Positions 31,030-34,968 of a stretch of DNA of 64,000 nucleotides are shown here, piece by piece. Every line of letters starts with the position of its first letter. The stretch's first letter is position 1. The stretch is from assembly GCA_902509555.1 (NCBI GenBank), contig CABWYS010000001.1:62001-126000 (forward strand), in the 5' to 3' direction. Below the pieces are notes generated by a model that did no database searches, was not told the origin of the DNA, and saw nothing but the letters and a program-made list of their open reading frames with translations. A program made the translations under genes and the position numbers. The DNA is from an uncultured SAR86 cluster bacterium (lineage in GTDB: Bacteria > Pseudomonadota > Gammaproteobacteria > Magnimaribacterales > D2472).

Positions 31030-32148
31030 TCACTCATCGCTATTCAAAAAATTAAGAAAATCACTCCTTTTAATAGCTTCTGCTACATGCAGATGTCCAA
31101 CTCTATTCCAATGCATATCATAAGAAAAATTAAATTTTTTATTATTCAGTAGCCACTCTTGATAAAAAATAGAGTGCATATCAAGCACTGTAATATTCTT
31201 AAATTTTTGAGATTGATCTTTCATATGCTCAAATGCAAGGTTGCTAACTCGATCCATATTACGTTTTCTATTTCCCGAGTAAATAGCCTTTCTGTCTCCA
31301 TCCAAAACTAGCAGTACTGGCTTTCCAGAAACCAGGCTTTCAAGTTTATGAAGAAAAAGTTCAACTGCTCTTAGCGAATATTCTGCCCGAAGTATTTTTT
31401 GACTATCATTAAAAGCAATCTGTTCATCTAAAATATTTGACTCTCCTTGAAAATATTTTTCTACGATTCGAGACAATTGGACTTGTATCTTTAGATCTAA
31501 ATACAAATAACGAATGAAAGCGCTTTCTCTAAGAAATGATTTTATTGAATTATGCTCGAGGTCAACTCTTATTAACTGCTGATCTTCTGAAAAGTAATGA
31601 AATCCAGGATTATTTTTATATCTTAGCCAAGACTCATCAAAATCATTTTCAATAATGATGAAAATATATCCATCAGGTGCAAAATTTTCAGAAATAAATT
31701 TTGTAAATACCAGGTATTGTGACAAAGGAGAGCCACTAATACCCAGGGGATAAAAATTAATTCCTGGATTTTGAAGTGACAACCTGCCGTGAAAGGAATC
31801 TTCATTGCTTACCTGGGATGCTTCAACAAAACTATCACCGACAATTCCTACAAGATTGCTATGGATGCCAACCTTGCCTTCAAAAAAAGTATCAGTAGCA
31901 TATCCATAATTATTTATTCTTTTTTTTACTATATGTTTAAAGTTGAACCCCGTCTGTCGGGTTAAAAGATTATTACTTTGAAAATGCAAAACAGGGTTTT
32001 CTTGATTTACAGGTTGAACTTTCAATGAATCTGAAACTGGAAGAAACCTGAAAATAACTTCAAGCAAAAAGAATGTTGATAAGCACAGGTATAAAAGAAA
32101 AGCACTAAAATTTAGCAATTTCATAACCCAGAATCTATTAGTTAACAT
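31030..32148 (-). CDS. Membrane-anchored SGNH/GDSL hydrolase-like protein
   Basis: N-terminal TM; block I VGIVGDSFVEASQ and C-terminal YDMHWNRVGHLHVAEAI (D-x-x-H dyad). Confidence 0.7.
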   Translation of the reverse strand: MLTNRFWVMKLLNFSAFLLYLCLSTFFLLEVIFRFLPVSDSLKVQPVNQENPVLHFQSNNLLTRQTGFNFKHIVKKRINNYGYATDTFFEGKVGIHSNLVGIVGDSFVEASQVSNEDSFHGRLSLQNPGINFYPLGISGSPLSQYLVFTKFISENFAPDGYIFIIIENDFDESWLRYKNNPGFHYFSEDQQLIRVDLEHNSIKSFLRESAFIRYLYLDLKIQVQLSRIVEKYFQGESNILDEQIAFNDSQKILRAEYSLRAVELFLHKLESLVSGKPVLLVLDGDRKAIYSGNRKRNMDRVSNLAFEHMKDQSQKFKNITVLDMHSIFYQEWLLNNKKFNFSYDMHWNRVGHLHVAEAIKRSDFLNFLNSDE

Positions 32149-32227
32149 GATTATTTTTGAGTATTGCCTATTGTCATATACATATCAAATCCTTATGACT
32201 ATTTATGATATGCCTTAAATTATTTTT

Positions 32228-32242
32228 TGGCATAAGAATTGC
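32228..32242 (+). promoter_or_regulatory. Sigma-54-like -24/-12 promoter element
   Basis: TGGCATAAGAATTGC, matching TGGCACG-N4-TTGC at 9/11 consensus positions with exact GG-GC spacing. Confidence 0.45.
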
Positions 32243-32253
32243 ATTTATATCGA

Positions 32254-32376
32254 TGTACGTTAAGCATTCTTTCTTTTCCCCTAAATAGAAGTTGAATACA
32301 AATTCACATAAAATGCTTAGCGTACTTTTCCCCCTAAGAATATTGAAGGGTCTTTCATTAGGCCCTTCATTTTTTC
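32254..32376 (+). ncRNA. Candidate small RNA, ~120 nt, unassigned family
   Basis: 14-bp inverted repeat GTACGTTAAGCATT (32255-32268)/AATGCTTAGCGTAC (32312-32325), duplicated CTTTTCCCC(C)TAA, terminator at 3' end, promoter-like element upstream; no plausible ORF. Confidence 0.55.
32344..32375 (+). terminator. Intrinsic terminator (plus strand)
   Basis: TGAAGGGTC-TTTCATTA-GGCCCTTCA followed by TTTTTT. Confidence 0.85.
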
Positions 32377-34968
32377 TTAAAGATTAAATTCTGCAGTAAG
32401 ATTTATTAATCGACCCCTTGGGTCATGTACTTTGGTATCAAAACTAAAGTCAGGAGCGTCATATAATAATGGAGCTTTCTTATCAAAAGCATTGATAATC
32501 CCTAGACCCACCTCCATTTCACCCAATGAAAACTGAAAAGATTTTTTTATTGAAAAGTCATGCACTAAAAATGATTTGACATAGTTTGTGTAACCAAGGC
32601 TGATCGCAGATGAAGGGATCTGACGCTCATTTGAATACCCTTTGACATACCTTGTATTCATTCCCATCACCAAATCATTGATTGCCCAGCTTAAAAATGT
32701 ATTCAATCGCAATTTTGGCAGTGAATGCGTATGCGCATCGTAGTTGAACTTGCCCACTCTGTTGACCATAATTGAGCGAACTCCCTGATCCCCTGCTTCA
32801 CTATCCTCAGGCGTTAAAAATTCAGAAAATTGAGTTGCCTTAATCGAATAATTAAAGTCACCATATTGAGTGGCTTTAAAGAAATTTATCTCTGCATCTA
32901 TGCCATTAATTTCAGTTTTTTCTTCGTTGAAATATGAGGTGCTTACTGCTATCAACTCTCCAAATTGATTTCTAGTTATGCTGGTCGCATAAGGATTTGT
33001 ATTTAATAACACCTGAGCGCTCTCTGCTTCAATTCGATCATTATAATTTATAGCCCAATAATCAATGGTTAGATTTACTTCTTTAATAATCTTCCATATA
33101 AATCCCAAACTAATATTTTTTGAAGTTGCAGACTTTAAGTTTGGATTTCCTAAAACTGCCAAACGAACAAATGGAGAATCATCTATATCTCTAACACTTC
33201 CAAGACGAATTTCAGAGGAGAACATTTGAGCCATCGAAGGAGCTGTAAAAGAAGTACCGAAAGAACCTCTTAATAAAAAATTTCTTAAGGCTGAGTACTT
33301 AAATGAGAATTTTGGATCAAATGACGATTCATTATCCAGTCTTTCATAGCGACCAGATAAAATTAAGTCCAATGCATTGCCAAAATTTTTATTTGCTTCA
33401 AAGAAAACAGCTTGTTTATTTCTGCTGGTGTTAACGTTTGTCCCGCCACCCAAAAATAATAAATCTGCACCTTTGGTTAATTTTCCAGTGGAATCAAACG
33501 CAACTCTGCTCATTTCAGAATAATTAATTTGCAAATCCTCTGCATTAAACTGAAAACCTAAAGCAAAGTTCGTTCCATTCTTTTGGCCTCTCAAAATTCC
33601 ATCCAAGGATATAAGACTGCCAGTCTTAGTTGAAGTCTCAGAGCCTTTTATGTAATCAATTAAAGTTGCTGAATTTTCTAAAGGTAAAAATATATTCCAC
33701 TGCTCATCACCATTTGGACCACCTTGCCCCAAAATTGCAGCCTCAAACCTTGATTCAATGGTATCCGGTCGATTGTGCTCATTCTCATGTTCGCTTGCAG
33801 TTAGAGACAGTTCAAAATCTAAATTCTGAGAAATATCAAAAATTAATCTATTACTAAAATGATATTGAAAAATGGCCTTGGGTGAATTGGGTGATGGGAA
33901 TGCAGAACCCAAAGGTCTGCCATACCAAATCACTGGTACGTTGAATGGACTGCCCCCCTGTCCTGGGAAAATTTTCTTAGATAAATATGATAGAGCTGGA
34001 TAAGATGGGGATTGTGGATTGTCATTCACATCAATTTTGGCCATCAGCACAGTGGCTGAATAATCAATCTTTGAACTAGATCTTGTAAAGTGCAGATATC
34101 CTTTTAGGTGATCCTCATCATTGACTATATTGAACCGCTCGCCATATAAAAATTTACATCTTGGTCCAGCCAACACGCCTCCATTTTCAACACAATTTGG
34201 ATCAGGGATTGTTTGATTTTTATTATAACTTCCAGCATATATGCCAGAAGCTACTGAATCTGCTTGAGTAACTTTAAAGCTATTCCCCAGACCGCTTAGA
34301 CCCAATTCAGCAAACTTGGGAATGCTTGAAGCATTTAGAGGAGATTTGTTCAAGGAGCTCAAGGCAAATACATAGTTTCCTCCCAAAGTCTCACCTCCAA
34401 CAAGCATGCCTAAAGAATTATCCCTTTGATCATGGTTACTAGTTTTCTGACTGCCAAGCGCAAGGCGTATGCCATTAAATTGTTGATATGTTTGAAAATT
34501 AATAACTCCTGCTACAGCATCAGAGCCATAAAGTGAAGTAGCTCCATCTTTTAGGATCTCAATTCTGTTAAGAGCTATTTCAGGAATAATATTTATATCA
34601 ATATAGCCCTCGCCTTCGTCTGAGGGTGTACCAGAATGGGTCTGGCGTTTTTTATTAATCAACACAAGGGTTGATGCATGATCCATTCCACGTAAAGTGA
34701 TGTTTGCCATTCCCTGGTCAACACCGTCCAAAGCATTCGTTTGAAAGTTAGAACCTGAGGCAATGCTTAAATATTTACTAAGTTCAGCAACAGTGGTTAC
34801 TCTCAAATTTTTAAACTCCTCAGCTGAAATAATATCTACCGGTGAGGCATTCACTTCACTAGATTCTAAATATGAAGCTACTGAAATAATTTCCTCAGTT
34901 TCTTGGGCTAAAACAAAATTATTGGCAAAGGTGAAAAGGAAGAATGTAATTAAAATTCTCAAGTTCAT
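32377..34968 (-). CDS. TonB-dependent receptor
   Basis: 863 aa; plug domain (SPVDIISAEEFKNLRVTTVAELSKYL...NITLRGM...VLINKKRQ...IEILKDGATSLYGSDAVAGVINF), C-terminal beta strand ending in F-N-L. Confidence 0.93.
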   Translation of the reverse strand: MNLRILITFFLFTFANNFVLAQETEEIISVASYLESSEVNASPVDIISAEEFKNLRVTTVAELSKYLSIASGSNFQTNALDGVDQGMANITLRGMDHASTLVLINKKRQTHSGTPSDEGEGYIDINIIPEIALNRIEILKDGATSLYGSDAVAGVINFQTYQQFNGIRLALGSQKTSNHDQRDNSLGMLVGGETLGGNYVFALSSLNKSPLNASSIPKFAELGLSGLGNSFKVTQADSVASGIYAGSYNKNQTIPDPNCVENGGVLAGPRCKFLYGERFNIVNDEDHLKGYLHFTRSSSKIDYSATVLMAKIDVNDNPQSPSYPALSYLSKKIFPGQGGSPFNVPVIWYGRPLGSAFPSPNSPKAIFQYHFSNRLIFDISQNLDFELSLTASEHENEHNRPDTIESRFEAAILGQGGPNGDEQWNIFLPLENSATLIDYIKGSETSTKTGSLISLDGILRGQKNGTNFALGFQFNAEDLQINYSEMSRVAFDSTGKLTKGADLLFLGGGTNVNTSRNKQAVFFEANKNFGNALDLILSGRYERLDNESSFDPKFSFKYSALRNFLLRGSFGTSFTAPSMAQMFSSEIRLGSVRDIDDSPFVRLAVLGNPNLKSATSKNISLGFIWKIIKEVNLTIDYWAINYNDRIEAESAQVLLNTNPYATSITRNQFGELIAVSTSYFNEEKTEINGIDAEINFFKATQYGDFNYSIKATQFSEFLTPEDSEAGDQGVRSIMVNRVGKFNYDAHTHSLPKLRLNTFLSWAINDLVMGMNTRYVKGYSNERQIPSSAISLGYTNYVKSFLVHDFSIKKSFQFSLGEMEVGLGIINAFDKKAPLLYDAPDFSFDTKVHDPRGRLINLTAEFNL

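Follow-up and report, generated by a model that had tools for sequence, protein, structure and literature searches.

The locus and a predicted RNA gene

SAR86 bacteria abound in the surface ocean and remain largely uncultured. The window analysed here is a stretch of 64,000 nucleotides of contig CABWYS010000001.1, from an uncultured SAR86 cluster bacterium whose assembly (G000) is 70% complete. On its plus strand, between the gene of an SGNH-like protein and a convergent gene encoding a TonB-dependent receptor of 863 amino acids, the window carries what is almost certainly a real small RNA (sRNA) gene. A sequence-only reading had proposed at this position a free-standing structured RNA of about 120 nucleotides, possibly a regulator of outer-membrane receptors. 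Our analysis strongly supports a new, free-standing structured RNA family of that size, as judged from covariation, from a promoter and RNA conserved within random-like spacer, from synteny that is fixed while one neighbour changes, and from the lack of an Rfam match.

The features of the locus are listed in Table 1. The promoter-like element noticed earlier is indeed present, and its type is sigma-54 (RpoN); TGGCATAAGAATTGCA is the sole exact sigma-54 match in the window. A sigma-70 promoter was rejected, since the promoter scan of the plus strand detected no sigma-70-like site at this position and the element matches sigma-54 exactly. The predicted start lies 12 nucleotides past the -12 GC, one base ahead of the 14-bp stem, and the spacing from GC to stem is constant (13-14 nucleotides) in 15 homologues. 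The long-range inverted repeat and the small TGAAT/ATTCA hairpin lie where they had been described. Stem-loop 2 with its CCCC loop and the second C-run, which is lost in L014 (G007) and L038 (G010), had been missed. The terminator had been recognised correctly as a hairpin followed by six T residues, but its stem counts ten pairs and not nine; read on the minus strand, the hairpin has no more than the weak T-run ATATTCTTAGGGGG behind it. The interval originally outlined starts at 32149, and takes in about 80 bp of unconserved spacer.

Table 1. Features of the predicted RNA gene and its convergent neighbour, in window coordinates
Feature	Position	Strand	Basis
Sigma-54 (RpoN) promoter	32228..32243	+	-24 GG at 32229-32230, -12 GC at 32241-32242; exact TGGCAY-N5-TTGCA, TGGCATAAGAATTGCA
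Predicted sRNA transcript, ~122 nt	32254..32375	+	start inferred from the -12 GC, end at the T-run; fold, covariation
Closing 14-bp stem, 5' arm	32255..32268	+	pairing kept in 99.6% of cells (17 homologues); compensatory change at 3 pairs
Closing 14-bp stem, 3' arm	32312..32325	+	one G.U in the stem; covariation
Stem-loop 2 (TTCT/AGAA) with C-rich loop	32271..32290	+	arms 32271-32274/32287-32290; one compensatory pair
CCCC, likely seed, in loop of stem-loop 2	32278-32281	+	invariant in 17/17 aligned sequences
Stem-loop 3 (TGAAT/ATTCA)	32293..32306	+	arms 32293-32297/32302-32306; predicted in the consensus fold
Second C-run (CCCCC), linker before terminator	32330..32334	+	kept in most homologues
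Intrinsic terminator	32344..32375	+	hairpin 32344-32369, 10-pair stem (5 G-C), then T6; 4 compensatory pairs
Stop codon of convergent 863-aa TonB-dependent receptor gene (32377-34968)	32377..32379	-	Plug and beta-barrel Pfam domains

Structure, conservation and distribution

The region 32250-32380 folds with a minimum free energy of -40.8 kcal/mol, compared with -16.2 +/- 2.8 in dinucleotide shuffles (z = -8.8, 0/200), and the fold of five homologues gave z values of -2.9 to -7.7. Covariation and loop conservation were followed in an alignment of 17 homologues (A5), in which 98.4% of the pair cells of the predicted structure are kept; sliding the partners lowers pairing to 22-45%. Two-sided compensatory changes were detected at 8 pairs, as opposed to 1.3 in shuffled controls (0/500) and 1-5 in structures with slid partners. 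Every helix carries such a change except the small stem-loop 3, which is largely invariant and hence gives little covariation information. In G090 (L036) three A-U pairs of the 14-bp stem have become G-C, with all 14 pairs retained. Many loop positions are invariant across the homologues.

No Rfam family matched at the gathering threshold and the best matches at E<=10 were at chance level (E 0.6-8). Membership of an Rfam family, the known sigma-54 sRNAs included, was rejected because no covariance-model match exceeded the gathering score, and the description of the element as uncatalogued holds. The only open reading frame (ORF) of note inside the RNA has 31 codons and a TTG start. Homologues differ in length by 1-3-nucleotide indels that break any frame, indicating that there is no conserved reading frame; on this ground a protein-coding remnant was rejected, in agreement with the earlier view that no credible ORF lies inside. 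We infer that the RNA is transcribed, the transcript of Table 1 being a predicted one.

DNA and covariance-model searches detected the RNA in 18 of the 27 genomes of this SAR86 genus, which is 18 of the 20 in which the slot is assembled. The searches yielded no convincing homologue among 204 genomes of other SAR86 genera or in a class-wide sample of 387 genomes, and a scan for the promoter plus the stem matched SAR86 records only. Two weak matches were taken as chance: one in G301 (35.7 bits) and one in G058 (27 bits), the latter resembling a terminator without an adjoining sigma-54 site. Matches of the model on the antisense strand (L042-L050) arise because the stem is self-complementary and were dismissed as homologues. 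A phage or mobile origin was rejected, viral contigs having given no match.

All 18 homologues have the promoter. On average, pairs of homologues are 37% identical over the 70 bp upstream of it, 87% over the promoter itself and 76% downstream, so that promoter and RNA stand out as conserved within a random-like spacer. Wherever the flanks are long enough, the RNA sits at the 3' end of an orthologue of the 863-amino-acid receptor gene and is convergent with it, L061 being the exception. The neighbour on the other side varies: an SGNH-like protein in the window, a protein of 171 or 120 amino acids elsewhere. The slot between the sRNA and a conserved gene of 243 amino acids (31030-32148 in the window, and its counterparts) is a small variable spot, whose cargo differs by genome (SGNH-like, 372 amino acids; 171 amino acids; 120 amino acids; or none). 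At L061:7127-7180 (FRAM18_bin311, CAJIYN010000002.1), another TonB-dependent receptor gene is preceded by 47 bp that match the sRNA promoter and first ~25 nucleotides of G010 (FRAM18_bin297) exactly; the fusion may reflect a genuine transfer of the promoter or a chimera of the assembly.

Nine of the 27 genus genomes do not carry the RNA. In seven of them the receptor gave no match above the threshold applied, being either absent or unassembled; in the other two, G015 and G016, the slot is empty. The slot of G015 is degenerate with a weak model match, RpoN and NtrC were undetected in this genome, and the receptor frame is shortened at the contig end. Since G015 retains the terminator hairpin though the RNA is gone, the hairpin probably serves both the RNA and the convergent receptor gene, and does not belong to the RNA alone as first thought.

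Probable sigma-54 and NtrC control

RpoN (PF04552) was detected in 28 of the 41 genomes of a wider SAR86 panel. G000 has it, as do most relatives of families f1 and f2; f3 and f4 for the most part lack it. No genome has more than one true bacterial enhancer-binding protein (bEBP), the activator of sigma-54, and most of the 27 genomes of the genus have one. This sole bEBP scores 639 bits against the NtrC equivalog cut-off of 558.6 (TIGR01818). The best NCBIfam match of the kinase beside it is NtrB, with 229 bits just under the cut-off of 240, and the gene context is glnA (GlnII-like glutamine synthetase)-ntrB-ntrC. NtrC being the only true bEBP, its control of the RNA is suggested by elimination. 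Control by sigma-54 and NtrC is thus likely, and the RNA is probably a nitrogen-stress sRNA, as far as can be read from sequence.

The sigma-54 pattern gave 141 sites in the 27 genomes, compared with 4 for the reversed pattern. In the genomes examined, sites precede glnA-ntrB-ntrC, torF, glnK-amtB (one or two sets), a receptor gene and this RNA, and some fall inside genes. A perfect NtrC-like palindrome precedes glnA, and glnK2 has a nearly matching one.

Proposed action, targets and alternatives

Neither Hfq (PF17209) nor ProQ (PF04352) was detected in any of the 41 SAR86 genomes, of which 14 are at least 90% complete, while the E. coli positive controls were, and tblastn with CsrA and Hfq queries was negative in those parts of the G009 and G010 genomes that were searched; very divergent proteins could have been missed. 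SAR86 seems to be without all three of these common sRNA-related RNA-binding proteins. In the account that we favour, nitrogen limitation would lead to phosphorylated NtrC, the presumed activator, switching on RpoN polymerase at the sRNA promoter. The RNA would run from about 32254 to the terminator, its closing stem holding the two stem-loops and exposing the invariant CCCC loop, usually with the second C-run in the linker. By pairing with G-rich ribosome-binding sites this loop would block translation initiation, TonB-dependent receptors being the most likely target class.

Target analysis covered nearly the whole genome of G009 (1411 genes) and the incomplete G010. In G009, 7 of 13 receptor-like genes have GGGG within 25 nucleotides of the start, versus 44 of 1398 others (p 8e-8); the corresponding figures near the start in G010 are 4/18 and 29/967 (p 0.002). 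Ranking the G009 genes by energy of the duplex with the C-loop placed 6 of the 13 receptors at ranks 9-49 (p 3e-7), where the best of ten shuffled loops reached p 2e-5. These data are consistent with the CCCC loop pairing with G-rich initiation regions, a prediction that stands at about even chances. The receptors are tentatively put forward as the main targets, a choice that may well prove wrong.

Several observations weigh against this account. The search for NtrC in G000, the 70% complete assembly from which the window comes, was negative, and no NtrC-type palindrome was found upstream of the sRNA promoter; the torF and G000 glnK promoters likewise have no obvious one. The RNA appears dispensable, because G016 has lost it yet keeps RpoN and NtrC. 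The G-rich receptor leaders are independent of the RNA, since SAR86 relatives without the sRNA have them too: GGGGRA stands at 4 of 23 receptor starts in G026 and G032 (family f3), compared with 5 of 13 in G009. These control leaders were judged by position matching, with a full listing for those two genomes only. After this control, the receptor leaders were rejected as evidence of coevolution with the RNA. A conserved-target screen of 769 orthologues in two genomes stayed within the range of shuffled loops, and the leader of the adjacent receptor itself pairs only weakly and does not look like a target. The earlier suggestion of receptor regulation is therefore a supported guess: the enrichment of G-rich receptor leaders stands, but the sRNA-free relatives have such leaders as well.

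As a whole, the account of a trans-acting nitrogen-regulated sRNA of one SAR86 genus, with receptors as the most likely target class, appears to us evenly balanced between right and wrong. Its strongest form, a chaperone-free nitrogen-starvation sRNA repressing a set of TonB-dependent receptors through one C-rich loop, is rather doubtful; if true, it would tie nitrogen status to organic-matter uptake in the streamlined SAR86 cells of the surface ocean. The analysis defines an RNA family, for which it provides a covariance model, with nitrogen limitation as the predicted inducing signal and a class of targets that can be tested. It also raises the question of how RNA-based regulation operates in cells in which Hfq, ProQ and CsrA could not be found.

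The most probable alternative, though itself unlikely, is that the RNA is a nitrogen-stress sRNA whose main targets are other G-rich leaders and not receptors, for instance those of glnK2 or of a conserved 72-amino-acid membrane protein with leader AUAGGGGGAAAUUAUG. In G009, glnK2 is second by duplex energy, and the gene of the 72-amino-acid protein, with leader AGGGGGAAA shared by G009 and G010, ranks second of the 769 orthologues. However, the glnK leader of G000 reads AAGGAGG, where pairing of the glnK2 type is not evident, and the conserved-target screen was overall no better than shuffled controls. The membrane protein (72-74 amino acids) is encoded at L186:15957-16175 in G009 and L228:4293-4517 in G010; its leader AUAGGGGGAAAUUAUG is identical in these diverged genomes and complementary to the C-loop of the sRNA.

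A cis-antisense action, in which the RNA would alter the termination or stability of the convergent receptor mRNA by overlapping the 3' end of that mRNA, would agree with the constant convergence of the RNA with the same receptor. Because the minus-strand T-run ATATTCTTAGGGGG is weak, receptor transcripts may also read past the hairpin into the complement of the RNA. Full-complement antisense, however, needs neither compensatory changes in the 14-bp stem nor an invariant loop, and in G016 the receptor frame stays open without the RNA, so that we consider this action improbable. The many invariant loop positions would also suit a sponge or protein-binding RNA that titrates a protein, as CsrA-binding sRNAs do, but the loops are C-rich and not GGA, and the searches for CsrA, Hfq and ProQ described above were negative, making a sponge more improbable still. 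That there is no RNA gene at all, just a terminator of the receptor gene next to a sigma-54 promoter that drives something else, is very improbable: G015 keeps the hairpin without the RNA and a short unrelated ORF is possible, but no plus-strand gene lies downstream of the promoter, all helices but stem-loop 3 covary and the small indels break any frame.

Qrr, GlmY/GlmZ and CrcZ are structured sRNAs transcribed from sigma-54 promoters, with LuxO, GlrR and CbrB as the respective activators. The SAR86 RNA resembles them as a structured sRNA behind such a promoter, but the only bEBP here is NtrC, and those families are absent from the Rfam matches up to E 10. In Firmicutes, RsaE/RoxS and LhrC are sRNAs with UCCC or C-rich loops that block Shine-Dalgarno sites. 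The SAR86 RNA shares with them an exposed C-rich loop complementary, by energy calculation, to G-rich ribosome-binding sites, but is unrelated in sequence and promoter. GlnZ of Enterobacteriaceae is driven by NtrC, cut from the glnA 3' untranslated region, requires Hfq and pairs with sucA (PMC9731577). Like GlnZ, the SAR86 RNA would be a nitrogen-stress sRNA under NtrC; unlike GlnZ it has its own promoter, in cells where no Hfq was found. NrsZ, a nitrogen-regulated sRNA of Pseudomonas aeruginosa, is controlled by RpoN and NtrB/NtrC; it is a processed RNA of 226 nucleotides that adjoins ntrC, carries the motif ACAGGCAG and activates rhlA (PMC9308961). Both are free-standing with an RpoN promoter, and for the SAR86 RNA NtrB/NtrC control is likewise proposed and induction by nitrogen limitation expected, whereas it is shorter (~122 nucleotides), located elsewhere, has CCCC loops and matches no Rfam family. 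It is probably NrsZ-like in logic and not homologous. In the library searched, no paper was found that deals with SAR86 together with small RNAs, Hfq or NtrC.

Two further sigma-54 sites were noticed in G009. The site TGGCATTAATGTTGCA (L109:1533-1548; G009:C1:164932-164947) lies directly upstream of a TonB-dependent receptor, and several genomes of the genus contain this site sequence or one resembling it, suggesting that at least one receptor may itself belong to the sigma-54 regulon. At L114:1527-1600 (G009:C2:32326) a sigma-54 site is followed by about 300 bp without a clear ORF before the next gene, possibly a second sigma-54 small RNA or a small protein.
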